Source of the DNA: a virus | Strand: one strand, 5' to 3' | IMG/VR virus record: IMGVR_UViG_3300049435_000050 | Span: 1 to 64,000 of that record | DNA: 64,000 nucleotides | Shown: positions 34,523-42,674 of the stretch, piece by piece | Layout of the letters: each line of letters opens with the position of its first letter | Position numbering within the stretch: position 1 is the first letter of the stretch | Notes under the pieces: generated by a model | Database searches by the model: none | Seen by the model: the letters and a program-made list of their open reading frames with translations, nothing else | Told to the model about the DNA's origin: nothing | Position numbers and translations under genes: made by a program

Positions 34523-36001
34523 ATGAAAACCCTCAAAGACCTGACACCTGAAATAGCCGCTAAAATACCTGAATATATAGCAAAATACACTAAAGGTGTT
34601 TTTGACGGGGAACGATACAACAATTTCAATATTGAATCAGCTACAGCCCTGATAGATTGGAATTACGAAACGTGTAAGTATAAAAACCCATGTGTATTAG
34701 TAGCTGAAAATCCATACGAAGCACAAATATTTTTCAATTATATATCCGCCAATAAAGAAGCGTTTACACCAATTATATATGCGATATACTGCCTCAGAAA
34801 TGGAATTGAAGTAAACCTCAATGTTGTGCCTGAAAATAAGAAGCTAGACTCACAGCTAGGCTCACAGCTATACTCACAGCTATACTCACAGCTAGACTCA
34901 CAGCTATACTCACAGCTATACTCACAGCTACGCTCACAGCTAGGCTCACAGCTAGGCTCACAGCTATACTCACAGCTAGGCTCACAGCTATACTCACAGC
35001 TAGGCTCACAGCTATACTCACAGCTATACTCACAGCTAGACTCACAGCTACGCTCACAGCTAGGCTCACAGCTAGGCTCACAGCTAGACTCACAGCTATA
35101 CTCACAGCTATACTCACAGCTACGCTCACAGCTAGGCTCACAGCTACGCTCACAGCTATACTCACAGCTATACTCACAGCTATACTCACAGCTATACTCA
35201 CAGCTACGCTCACAGCTATACTCACAGCTAGACTCACAGCTATACTCACAGCTATACTCACAGCTATACTCACAGCTTAAAACCTATAATAACGACTATT
35301 TATTTACTACTAATGTATACTCAAATTGGTATGCTGGATATTATAAATTTATAGCTGACGAACTTAGTGTTGATGCCCCTATAAATGTGATGCTAAATAG
35401 CTGGAATGATCTTTACCAAAAATCCAATGTTTACTCAGCTATATTTTCTGAATTGCTTTGTGTGGTATCTAAATACCCTAAAAAAGTACATCGTAATGAA
35501 AACAATGATATGCACAGAACGGATGGGCCAGCTATTGAATGGGGATTTTCCACCGATATAACTAAATTTGACGGATACTATGTCAACGGTCGCAATATGC
35601 CGCAATGGATATTTGGAGAAGTGACCAAAGAGCAATTCATTAATGAAACCAATGAGGATATTAAGGCCGGGATATATGAAGTAATAGAGGCTAAAGGAGA
35701 AGGCACTATGCTTAACTTTTTGGGGGCTACAGAAGTAGATAAGCAATCAGTAGTTCACGGTGATGGCAGCGTAGAAGAATTAATTTTATATAAAACTACT
35801 GAACGATTTAAAGAAGAGGAAGATTTAAACGGCAAAACGAACGTACCGCTTGCCTGGATAAAAATGTGTTGTCCAAGTACTGGAACAAAATATTTAATAC
35901 CATCGGATAGTTCATTTAACTCTGCTATGGATGCCGCTAAATTTGCTCGCCCAACTATAGTACCACAAGAATTAGAATATACCTGGTTACAAAGAAATTA
36001 A
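34523..36001 (+). CDS. DUF6745-like protein with 36 tandem xSQL tetrapeptides
   Basis: 492 codons. Residues about 1-108: helical N-domain. Residues about 109-252: 36 uninterrupted x-S-Q-L units where x is Tyr, Gly, Asp or Arg. Residues about 253-492: a C-domain with HRTDGPAIEW and YYVNGRNMPQWI, a pattern I associate with DUF6745-type proteins, in which analogous four-residue repeats occur. The repeat would form a regular solenoid or helix with one variable face. Function unknown; repeat length is probably unstable between isolates. Confidence 0.7.
   Translation: MKTLKDLTPEIAAKIPEYIAKYTKGVFDGERYNNFNIESATALIDWNYETCKYKNPCVLVAENPYEAQIFFNYISANKEAFTPIIYAIYCLRNGIEVNLNVVPENKKLDSQLGSQLYSQLYSQLDSQLYSQLYSQLRSQLGSQLGSQLYSQLGSQLYSQLGSQLYSQLYSQLDSQLRSQLGSQLGSQLDSQLYSQLYSQLRSQLGSQLRSQLYSQLYSQLYSQLYSQLRSQLYSQLDSQLYSQLYSQLYSQLKTYNNDYLFTTNVYSNWYAGYYKFIADELSVDAPINVMLNSWNDLYQKSNVYSAIFSELLCVVSKYPKKVHRNENNDMHRTDGPAIEWGFSTDITKFDGYYVNGRNMPQWIFGEVTKEQFINETNEDIKAGIYEVIEAKGEGTMLNFLGATEVDKQSVVHGDGSVEELILYKTTERFKEEEDLNGKTNVPLAWIKMCCPSTGTKYLIPSDSSFNSAMDAAKFARPTIVPQELEYTWLQRN
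34847..35278 (+). repeat. 36 tandem 12-base units (in frame)
   Basis: Each unit is a variable codon (TAC, GGC, GAC or CGC) plus TCACAGCTA; only the final unit ends CTT. The nine constant bases are nearly invariant while the first codon varies, so the array is kept by selection or recent conversion. Confidence 0.95.
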
Positions 36002-36728: not shown

Positions 36729-37367
36729 ATGAGTATAGTTGCAAAATCAAGCGGGGGAACTACCCGTGAACCAATCGAAGCCGGGATGTATGTTGCGCGT
36801 TGTTTTCAAATGCTGCATATAGGAAATGTTATAGAAACCATTCCGGGCATGGCCCCAAAAAAGATGAATAAAGTTCGGATCACATGGGAACTACCTACAG
36901 AGATGCGAGTATTTAAGGAAGAAAACGGAGAACAACCGTTAACTACATCAAAGGATTTTACCCTATCCATGCACGAAAAGTCAGGATTAAGAGCAATGTT
37001 AAAAGGATGGCGCTCTAAAGACTTCACAGAACAGGAAGCCGCAGCGTTTGACATTACAAAACTATTGGGTGTTGCCTGTATGTTAAACATCACTCACAAG
37101 CCATCTAAAGACGGCTCACAGATGTACGAACAAATATCAGGAGTTACACCGCTGCCAAAGGGAATGACTTGCCCACCTCAGATAAATCCTAATCAGGAAT
37201 TAACATACGATAATTGGGATCAATCCTTATTTGATAAGTTGCCCGATTTCTTAAAGGATAAAATTAGGTCATCTGATGAATACAAAGCTATGATGAATCC
37301 TGAGCAAGCTTTTGTTGACGAGCATGGACAGCCAGTTGTTGACATAGAATCTGATTTACCCTTTTGA
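36729..37367 (+). CDS. Single-stranded-DNA-binding-like phage protein
   Basis: 212 codons. Core about 5-145 is beta-rich and reads like the phage DUF669/SSB-type family (VRITWELPTEMRVF, SLMHEKS-type segments). The tail is acidic and ends ESDLPF, very close to the DDDIPF tip by which bacterial SSB recruits partners. Likely coats ssDNA for replication or recombination. A structure search would confirm an OB fold. Confidence 0.55.
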   Translation: MSIVAKSSGGTTREPIEAGMYVARCFQMLHIGNVIETIPGMAPKKMNKVRITWELPTEMRVFKEENGEQPLTTSKDFTLSMHEKSGLRAMLKGWRSKDFTEQEAAAFDITKLLGVACMLNITHKPSKDGSQMYEQISGVTPLPKGMTCPPQINPNQELTYDNWDQSLFDKLPDFLKDKIRSSDEYKAMMNPEQAFVDEHGQPVVDIESDLPF

Positions 37368-37407: not shown

Positions 37408-37431
37408 CCCCGGTAAATATTCCGGGGTTTT
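37408..37431 (+). terminator. Hairpin terminator after the SSB-like gene
   Basis: CCCCGG (37408-37413) pairs with CCGGGG (37422-37427) around 8 bases, then TTTT. Confidence 0.7.
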
Positions 37432-37445
37432 AAAACACCACAAAC

Positions 37446-38717
37446 ATGAAATACCTAAAAATTCAAAATGACGGTGAACTTGACATAAGGTTAGTTGCAC
37501 TTATGGGAGGCACTACCAAAGCAAATGATACTTTTAAAATAGGCCAATTCGGGACAGGGTTAAAATACACCCTTGCTTACCTGTTTCGCAACAATATAGA
37601 ATTTAAAATATTTGTAGGGGATAAAGAAGTCCAACTATCTATTGAAACAGAAATTATAAAAGGAGAGAACTTTGACATTATTTGTATCAACGGCAACAGA
37701 ACCTCTATAACGACCCGTATGGGCGCCGATTGGTCAGCTTGGATGATCATAAGGGAATTATGGTGCAACGCCCTAGATGAAGGCGGAGCACTTGGAGAGG
37801 TAGTTACAGAAACAACTCCTGAACTCGGCAAAACTGTCTTTTACATTCAGGTTGATAAGGATTTTCAAAATGTATTAGATAACTGGCATAAATATTTTAT
37901 TCACGGAAAAGAAGCCTTATTTGAAAATACAACCCACAAAATATATCACGGTGGGGATAAGGTACGTATTTACAAACAGGGTGTACTTATTCACACTGTA
38001 GATCAACCGGGGCTATTCTCTTACGATGTAAAGAATGCCAGTATAAATGAACTACGCGAGTTTAAAGGTGTAGTAGCTGCAGAAATAGTACGGGCATTAA
38101 AAAATACCAATCCAACTGTAATAACCCATTTTCTTGAAAATGTAAACGATACCCACTTCGAGGGGACAATGGACTATAATTGGTATGAGAGCTTCGGCAT
38201 GGTTTGGAAAGACACTATAGGCTCGGCTAAAATCATCCACCAAAAAGCAGTTAACACTATTAAAGACAGGGGGGCAGAGATGGATATGGAGTCTATAATT
38301 ATACTCCCTATGCCTGTTTATAAATTCCTATCGGCGCAATTTGATGGTATAGGTGCTTTGCGTACTGCCGATAAGATTAATGAATTTTACGAAATACATT
38401 CAGAGGCGTTATCAACCAAACTCAATGAGGTGTTTGCTATTCTTGAAGTATGCGAATATGCTATACACCCTGAATTAAAGTTTTTATTTGGTGCTTTTGG
38501 TGATAAAAATATTCAAGGGCAAATAAATATGAACACCAAAGAAGTGATGCTATCAGATACATTGCTTGAAAAAAGCTTGTTTAATTTTATTGCCGTTATC
38601 ATTGAGGAAAATGAGCATTTCAAATCAGGTTTCCATGATTGCACCCGTAACTTTCAGCAACACTTCATTAATCTATACACAAAAACACTGTTAGATAAAA
38701 ACACTATTAAACTTTAA
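37446..38717 (+). CDS. Circularly permuted GHKL (Hsp90-like) ATPase
   Basis: 423 codons. Residues 5-14 (KIQNDGELDI) match the G1 box, 32-40 (IGQFGTGLK) the G2 box of Hsp90 (IGQFGVGF), and 103-113 (RELWCNALDEG) the N box (RELISNASDA) with E104, N108 and D111. In canonical GHKL proteins the N box comes first; here it follows G1 and G2, so the fold is permuted. The C-terminal 300 residues are unassigned but hold IIEENEHFKSG near 384-394, which could bind metal. It should bind ATP; role unknown. Confidence 0.65.
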   Translation: MKYLKIQNDGELDIRLVALMGGTTKANDTFKIGQFGTGLKYTLAYLFRNNIEFKIFVGDKEVQLSIETEIIKGENFDIICINGNRTSITTRMGADWSAWMIIRELWCNALDEGGALGEVVTETTPELGKTVFYIQVDKDFQNVLDNWHKYFIHGKEALFENTTHKIYHGGDKVRIYKQGVLIHTVDQPGLFSYDVKNASINELREFKGVVAAEIVRALKNTNPTVITHFLENVNDTHFEGTMDYNWYESFGMVWKDTIGSAKIIHQKAVNTIKDRGAEMDMESIIILPMPVYKFLSAQFDGIGALRTADKINEFYEIHSEALSTKLNEVFAILEVCEYAIHPELKFLFGAFGDKNIQGQINMNTKEVMLSDTLLEKSLFNFIAVIIEENEHFKSGFHDCTRNFQQHFINLYTKTLLDKNTIKL

Positions 38718-38721
38718 AATC

Positions 38722-39315
38722 ATGCAAACATCACAGGATCAATTTGAAGATATGCGCCAGGAAGAACTGGACTCAAAGCCAACCTGGACAAAACCAATAG
38801 CCACAGGACTAACCATACCTAAAAAATCTATTTATAACATTCACGGGGATTATATGCGCCTTATGGATGAAATAGAGAGCAATGAGGGGGAGTTAACCGA
38901 AGATACTGAAAAGCGCCTTGCTATCACTATGGAAGAATTGGAAGAAAAAGCAGTAAGCTATGGTTATTGTATCAGGCAGTTTGACTTTGAAATTAAGCAC
39001 ATACAGGCTGAACACGACCGGTTAAGTAAGATTATGATTAGCAAGACCAAGATACAGGCAGCTCTTAAAACACGTATCGCAGAGGCTATGCTCCACTTTA
39101 ATATTGAAAAGGTAGAAAACAACAACCTAAAACTATATTTCCTTAAATCAGAGCAATTACACATTGACGATGATGCTAAGATACCTAAGAAGTATATTAA
39201 AACTAAATTAGTAGAAACTATTGATAAAGCCGGACTAAAGGCTGATACTAAAAGCGGTGCTATTAAAGTTGAGGGTATATTTATTGTTGAAAACCAAAAC
39301 CTTCAAATAAAATGA
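38722..39315 (+). CDS. Siphovirus Gp157-family protein
   Basis: 197 codons. The long helical centre (YMRLMDEIESNEGELTEDTE, then EEKAVSYGYCIRQFDFEIKH and an EHDRLSKIMISK coiled coil) matches the Gp157 family, with a beta C-terminal third. Gp157 proteins occur in early phage regions beside recombination/SSB genes; their exact role is unsettled. Starts 4 bases after the GHKL gene. Confidence 0.75.
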   Translation: MQTSQDQFEDMRQEELDSKPTWTKPIATGLTIPKKSIYNIHGDYMRLMDEIESNEGELTEDTEKRLAITMEELEEKAVSYGYCIRQFDFEIKHIQAEHDRLSKIMISKTKIQAALKTRIAEAMLHFNIEKVENNNLKLYFLKSEQLHIDDDAKIPKKYIKTKLVETIDKAGLKADTKSGAIKVEGIFIVENQNLQIK

Positions 39316-41610: not shown

Positions 41611-41910
41611 ATGAACACACAAAAATTCAGCATTATCAGAACTCATTCCGCAGGTGTATGGTTCGGCAACATCAAAAAATTAGATGGCAGTATCGCTATC
41701 ATTACTAACGCAAGAAGGTTATGGTATTGGTCAGGGGCGGCCTCATTGAGCCAATTAGCGGTTGAAGGCACTAAAAGGCCACGTGATTGCAAATTCACGG
41801 TGACTATAACCGATGAGGATGGCGTTTATTTGCCACAGGTTATTGAGGTACTTCCATGCACTAATGAAGCTGTTGAAAACATTAATTCAGTGCCAGTATG
41901 GAAGATTTAA
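41611..41910 (+). CDS. Small conserved-type phage protein
   Basis: 99 codons, soluble. The pattern IITNARRLWYWSGAASLSQL resembles a small family seen in early regions of many phages (DUF6948-like); recalled, not verified. Overlaps the next gene by 13 bases. Confidence 0.6.
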   Translation: MNTQKFSIIRTHSAGVWFGNIKKLDGSIAIITNARRLWYWSGAASLSQLAVEGTKRPRDCKFTVTITDEDGVYLPQVIEVLPCTNEAVENINSVPVWKI

Positions 41911-42674
41911 TCAAAGCATTTATGGCGGCAACGCCGCAAAATTCCGGTTACGGTGACGGTTACGGTTCCGGTGACGGTTACGGTGACGGTGACGGTTCCG
42001 GTTCCGGTTCCGGTGACGGTTCCGGTTACGGTGACGGTTCCGGTTCCGGTGACGGTTCCGGTTACGGTGACGGTGACGGTTCCGGTTACGGTTACGGTGA
42101 CGGTTCCGGTTACGGTTACGGTTACGGTTACGGTGACGGTTACGGTGACGGTGACGTAAAGACTATTAATCACAGCGAGTATAAAAAAGGCTTTTTAGAT
42201 AAGCAAATTCATTCGTTAAAGTCATTCAACGGAGATCCAGTATATTATATAGATAATATCCCTTGTACGTTTTTATCAATCGTGAACAATGTGGCTAAAG
42301 TCGCCGTAATAAAAGATGACTTTAGCATAAAAAAAATGTACATCGCCAAGTCGGGTAATCTCTTTGCACACGGTGATACCAAAGAACAAGCGTTAAGAGC
42401 GGTAAATGAAAAGTTTTACGCCTCAATGTCTTTTGAAGAACGCAAGGCTGAATTTATCAGCAAGTTCAAAAATGATGCTGTGTACCCGAATCGACACTTC
42501 TTTGAATGGCATCATTTGTTAACAGGGAGTTGCGAAAGCGGGCGCATGATGTTTGTTGAATCACACGGGATTGATCTCGACGCTGGGATGAATACGATTA
42601 CATTTTTGAACTTGACAAAAAACGAGTACAACGGTGAAATTATCAAAGATATTTTAAGCCAAATAAGTTACTAG
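41898..42674 (+). CDS. Protein with 35 Gly-x dipeptides and a conserved C-domain
   Basis: 258 codons. Residues about 17-86 are 35 Gly-x dipeptides, x being Tyr, Asp or Ser. The C-terminal 170 residues form a soluble domain (KSFNGDPVYYIDNIPCTF, FEWHHLLTGSCESGRMMFVE). The C-domain pattern is one I associate with early-region phage/prophage proteins of unknown function that often carry variable N-terminal repeats. The flexible repeat could act as a tether or phase-separating tail. Confidence 0.6.
   Translation: MEDLIKAFMAATPQNSGYGDGYGSGDGYGDGDGSGSGSGDGSGYGDGSGSGDGSGYGDGDGSGYGYGDGSGYGYGYGYGDGYGDGDVKTINHSEYKKGFLDKQIHSLKSFNGDPVYYIDNIPCTFLSIVNNVAKVAVIKDDFSIKKMYIAKSGNLFAHGDTKEQALRAVNEKFYASMSFEERKAEFISKFKNDAVYPNRHFFEWHHLLTGSCESGRMMFVESHGIDLDAGMNTITFLNLTKNEYNGEIIKDILSQISY
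41946..42155 (+). repeat. 35 tandem 6-base units (in frame)
   Basis: GGT followed by TAC, GAC or TCC, uninterrupted for 210 bases. As in the 34847 array, only the second codon of the unit varies and TAC/GAC recur. Confidence 0.95.

Follow-up and report, generated by a model that had tools for sequence, protein, structure and literature searches.

A phage family of GHKL ATPase-like proteins with motifs in permuted order

The gene, its family and its neighborhood

The window analyzed here is a stretch of 64,000 nucleotides, positions 1 to 64,000 of the 73,185-base virus record IMGVR_UViG_3300049435_000050. At positions 37446-38717 it encodes a 423-residue protein with a GHKL ATPase-like core, a transducer-like region and a C-terminal domain resembling a small metallopeptidase. 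The features of the locus are as follows.

37446..38717, plus strand: whole gene, permuted GHKL ATPase-like protein of PHROG 8203 (open reading frame, 423 residues; profile match and 80 relatives)
37446..37694, plus strand: segment B, residues 1-83 (G1 strand, lid, G2 helix, sheet strands), canonically second and here first (colinear with canonical residues 45-120)
37458..37484, plus strand: G1-like motif KIQNDGELD, residues 5-13 (N8 in 74/80 relatives, G10 in 76/80)
37539..37565, plus strand: G2 motif IGQFGTGLK, residues 32-40 (G33, G36 and G38 invariant in 80)
37695..37811, plus strand: relocated segment A, residues ~84-122 (N-box helix with a strand on either side), which canonical relatives have at the N-terminus
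37752..37787, plus strand: N box RELWCNALDEGG, residues 103-114, with E104, N108 and D111 (these and R103 invariant in 80; helix 98-112)
37827..37850, plus strand: G3-like strand GKTVFYIQ, residues 128-135 (T130 invariant; modeled strand 129-135; aligns with the canonical G3 strand)
37851..38345, plus strand: transducer or Hsp90-middle-like region, residues ~136-300 (alignment with TRAP1; E202 and R204 in 80/80)
38388..38699, plus strand: C-terminal domain resembling mini-gluzincins, residues ~315-418, its site altered (structural matches)
38604..38618, plus strand: EENEH, residues 387-391, where canonical relatives have HExxH (motif alignment)
38722..39315, plus strand: neighboring gene for a Gp157/Gam-like protein (PF05565, E 2.4e-21; phrog_253, E 3e-23)

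The protein falls within PHROG 8203, a family of phage proteins catalogued with unknown function: residues 1-410 match positions 1-381 of the 394-position phrog_8203 profile (E 3.3e-51). Members such as gp29 of Pseudomonas phage YuA and the 'HATPase' of Epa38 match the family nearly over their full length, with an identical order of segments. Relatives are held in 72 phage records, mostly from Yuavirus-like Pseudomonas and Bordetella phages, and a few PHROG 8203 members have been named 'HATPase' or 'ATP-binding protein' by their depositors. The family is common across phages and has mostly gone unannotated so far; we found no record of it that notes the rearranged order described below. Searches of Pfam, NCBIfam and PDB sequences with the single protein gave nothing above cut-off, and no Pfam family was matched. 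The alignment used throughout comprises 80 relatives of the protein drawn from contigs of viruses and of bacteria.

Each of 50 viral contigs was found to carry a single copy of the gene, with 49 of the 50 frames free of internal stops. Against the relative in contig L002 the window's gene has a dN of 0.13, with dS saturated. As judged from these sequences, the gene is under purifying selection. A chromosomal housekeeping role in Bacteroidota was considered and rejected, full-length members being present in just 2 of 296 genomes, one of which was the genome used as the center of the sample. In two metagenome contigs (L009, 872-1675; L010, 3998-4801) the family frame runs to about residue 187 and then continues into an apparent DNA methyltransferase end. 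The junction is identical in both contigs and could represent a fusion, a deletion or an assembly chimera.

The preliminary description placed the gene next to Gp157 and SSB-like genes. The Gp157 assignment is borne out by the PF05565 match (E 2.4e-21), whereas the supposed SSB-like neighbor at 36729-37367 has no Pfam match and hits only phrog_862, a family of unknown function. Adjacency to Gp157 is peculiar to the window, with no above-cut-off Gp157 match in 50 contigs. Genes near family members mostly act in DNA metabolism but vary widely. Erf lies within 4 kb of the family gene in four of the five Erf-bearing contigs among the 50, and exonuclease VIII and DnaB-type helicases are found near other members. 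No fixed partner gene emerged across 90 loci. Just upstream of the gene, at 37408-37436, is a terminator-like inverted repeat, CCCCGGTAAATATTCCGGGG, followed by TTTT; the gene may accordingly be transcribed from a promoter of its own or be subject to attenuation. Two nearby genes encode repetitive proteins. One, at 34523-36001, specifies 492 residues with ~30 copies of an SQL(Y/G/R/D) repeat and has relatives near family genes in three other loci; the other, at 41898-42674, specifies 258 residues that start with a long Gly-Asp-Gly-Tyr/Ser repeat.

Motif conservation and segment order

ATPases of the GHKL type power topoisomerases, Hsp90, MutL, MORC and histidine kinases; to our knowledge, the order of their motifs is constant. 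The reading frame and motif positions proposed for the window's protein at the outset proved accurate (a G1-like motif at residues 5-13, G2 at 32-40, N box with E104, N108 and D111), and the relatives conserve all three motif regions. The N box has the expected E-x3-N-x2-D pattern on a helix (residues 98-112), and G2 conforms to GxxGxG. Thirteen positions (K25, G33, G36, G38, G93, W96, R103, E104, N108, D111, T130, E202 and R204) are invariant in 80/80 relatives, which argues that the motif set has not arisen by chance. In every one of these relatives the N box follows G1 and G2 instead of preceding them. Since the preceding gene ends at 37367, leaving a gap of 78 bases, no N box is hidden upstream. 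The order is G1-G2-N box-G3, and we therefore file the protein as a permuted GHKL derivative and not as a canonical member.

G1, originally listed as a plain motif, is present at residues 5-13 but degenerate. The aspartate of the GHKL DxGxG pattern is replaced by Asn8, the corresponding position in the relatives being Asn in 74, Ser in 5 and Thr in 1 but never Asp, and the second glycine is absent. In GHKL proteins this aspartate contacts adenine, and the matching yeast Hsp90 mutant, D79N, loses ATP binding. Because of the asparagine substitution, the protein may not bind ATP.

The best named profile for the family is that of the sacsin N-terminal GHKL domain (NCBIfam NF047352), which has the normal order; it matches 68 of the 80 members and scores the window's protein at 19.8 bits against a cut-off of 50. 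Positions 28-73 of the 80 in this profile correspond to residues 4-45, so that nothing at the N-terminus matches the profile's N-box part. With a tandem copy of the domain, a single match runs across the junction (residues 101-185 on profile positions 3-73) and the E value improves from 8e-4 to 2.6e-12. Each of the five members examined in this way gave a junction-crossing match, at E 5e-9 to 1e-13.

Proteins that retain the canonical order provide a closer comparison. A search of 296 Bacteroidota genomes with the family alignment identified a normal-order protein with an intact HExxH motif (L168), and further canonical-order relatives are carried by plasmids and by phages, VPMS1 and MTATph1 among them; PHROG 6077 is of this canonical kind. 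No canonical relatives were found when viral contigs were queried with L168. The canonical proteins, among them the HATPase of Vibrio phage VPMS1, the protein of Moorella phage MTATph1 and a plasmid 'ATP-binding protein', are homologous to the window's protein across the core and transducer, and some of them share its zincin domain. They differ in that the N box comes first and, where a zincin domain is present, in that HExxH...E is intact.

Profile-profile comparison with these relatives (E 2.2e-27) aligns residues 2-81 with canonical 45-120 and the remainder, from about residue 117, with 121-440, leaving residues 82-116 out of the colinear alignment. Residues 86-114 separately match canonical 4-32 (E 1.8e-6, or 6.8e-9 for the segment alone). 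A rotation scan of the core against the canonical relatives raised the score from 90 unrotated to 136 when starting at residues 73-89. When residues 84-122 were attached to the start of the full-length protein, the profile score rose from 210 to 268, compared with 218 for the reversed segment, a maximum of 220 for shuffled segments and 218 for the deletion. The HtpG and MutL profiles were discarded from the rotation scan as too narrow for the family, giving short matches only, mostly to the N box.

Were there no permutation, the N-box-like segment would be a chance or unrelated insertion into a protein that had lost its true N box, and sequential alignment does indeed treat residues 82-116 as an insertion. 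This explanation is extremely improbable given that the segment matches the canonical N-terminus, that its E-x3-N-x2-D is invariant in 80 relatives, and that moving it restores a single continuous alignment with the canonical proteins. We are confident that the canonical order A-B-C has instead become B-A-C in this family; segment A, comprising a strand, the N-box helix and a further strand, is shifted to just before the G3 strand. The term circular permutation, used in the preliminary description, thus captures a rearranged GHKL domain, as supported by the fold, the profile and the relatives, but the change is not a simple end-joining of the whole domain. Such an order could have arisen if A-B was first duplicated in tandem and the first A and last B were then lost.

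The AlphaFold2 model (pLDDT 92.6 overall, 94.0 for the core) appears GHKL-like, with strands and helices in the order expected of a Bergerat core that starts from the G1 strand. Within segment B the modeled elements are strand 3-9, helix 38-48 and strand region 53-81. VIA-align superposes residues 1-300 on TRAP1 151-468 (Z 6.8, 195 aligned, 4.2 Å), and Hsp90, GyrB, Topo IV and MORC2 align over similar ranges. The alignments with TRAP1, Hsp90, GyrB, Topo VI and MORC2 begin at the G1 strand and omit the N-box helix. Hsp90, TRAP1, GyrB and Topo VI can be aligned with the model through both the core and the middle or transducer region; unlike it, they have the N box first, an aspartate in G1 and no such C-terminal domain. 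With the core alone, Topo VI, GyrB, Topo II and ParE lead the VIA list at Z values of only 4.2 to 2.6, the Topo VI match (Z 4.2, 89 residues, 3.4 Å) being weak in itself. Foldseek found no significant match to the core alone in the PDB. This blank and the low VIA Z values are to be expected because the domain is permuted and the aligner sequential. Neither kind of comparison is able to fit a permuted chain, and the model-based alignments therefore support a rearranged GHKL domain but are not proof of it. Permuted proteins go undetected or score too low with sequential family models and with Foldseek, and phages therefore probably encode more ATPases than is recognized.

We found no report of a permuted GHKL or Bergerat domain in the open-access literature, and an earlier description elsewhere is possible. 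Permutation is not mentioned by Iyer 2008, and PMC7824862 mentions phage topoisomerases and RIIA as having GHKL domains in a normal context. The protein can accordingly be called undescribed, as it was initially, insofar as no open-access paper on a permuted GHKL domain was found, but not as a family, since it falls in PHROG 8203 and some depositors have given its members ATPase names. A natural permutation implies that the GHKL fold and pocket tolerate rewiring.

The C-terminal domain

The modeled C-terminal domain, over residues 319-418, resembles the mini-gluzincins selecase (Z 7.4, 89 aligned, 3.7 Å) and abylysin (Z 7.1) and also Wss1 (Z 6.3); the sequence match to abylysin has an E of 0.43. 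The modeled fold may be that of the mini-gluzincins and Wss1/SprT, at Z values of about 6-7, but their HExxH is replaced by EExxH. The pattern E-E-x2-H-x6-D-x5-Q is present in 67 of the 80 permuted members, where canonical relatives possessing the domain have HExxH-x6-D-x5-E, and histidine occupies the first motif position in none of the 80. By analogy with the gluzincin pattern, the helix glutamate of the canonical pattern would be the third zinc ligand. Because HExxH...E has become EExxH...Q, the domain probably does not work as a classical zinc protease.

An active metallopeptidase gated by the GHKL domain, in which EExxH would form a metal site of an unusual type, is nonetheless suggested by the fold matches to selecase, abylysin and Wss1 and by the strong conservation of the altered site, which at 67 of 80 members argues against simple decay. 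The replacement of the first zinc ligand histidine by glutamate and of the conserved helix glutamate by glutamine, together with the loss of the EExxH motif from one subclade that keeps the permuted core (L012, L013, L029 and L032-L035), makes such an activity distinctly improbable.

Possible functions

Our somewhat favored reading of the whole protein is a permuted GHKL nucleotide-gated clamp serving phage DNA metabolism. The B-A-C chain would refold to the canonical pocket, which would bind a nucleotide, probably ATP, and Asn8 may shift its specificity. With a nucleotide bound, the dimer would shut as a clamp on DNA or a protein; the C-terminal domain would serve to bind and not to cut, and the process most likely to be served would be phage DNA replication or recombination. 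Among the parts of this reading, the nucleotide-gated clamp is reasonably probable, and the role in DNA metabolism is tentative. The DNA-metabolism genes near family members speak for the reading, while the asparagine in G1, the low core alignment scores and the variable neighbors speak against it. The broader suggestion made at the outset, of a role in DNA metabolism or anti-defense, is a guess. Other GHKL dimers exchange a free N-terminal arm on dimerization, and the permuted family tests how far ATP-driven closing depends on that arm. It is conceivable, if doubtful, that the permuted Bergerat fold, an altered nucleotide specificity and a repurposed EExxH...Q metal site together constitute a phage switch that operates without one.

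A GHKL domain could alternatively be used by an RIIA-like modulator of lysis or exclusion. RIIA-like proteins are among the viral fold matches (E 5e-5), but with TM-scores of only 0.25-0.28 and rmsd values of about 17-21 Å, and the RIIA family profile phrog_612 gives no match to the window's protein at E ≤ 1. T4 RIIA has its GHKL domain at the N-terminus (PMC7824862). These poor superpositions render the RIIA-like reading highly improbable. RIIA proteins are, moreover, longer and of normal order.

The main rival to the nucleotide-gated clamp is anti-defense mimicry, in which a rearranged, protease-dead copy of the canonical GHKL-zincin proteins of hosts or plasmids would act as a decoy, poisoning their complexes or blocking their targets. 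The phage family replaces two conserved protease-site residues, as such a decoy might, and canonical genes on plasmids have type I restriction genes, a Piwi protein or DprA as neighbors in one case each. There are, however, only three such neighborhoods, no recognizable defense island surrounds the Bacteroidota chromosomal relative, and PADLOC returned no meaningful match; we regard the decoy as unlikely and retain the clamp as the preferred reading. Two of the canonical genes are of interest in their own right. One, at 2962-4404 of L182, has type I restriction genes on both sides on Salinibacter pSR56, and another, at 2983-4377 of L181, is carried by a Natrinema plasmid with a Piwi gene nearby; these genes are possibly an unlisted defense component.
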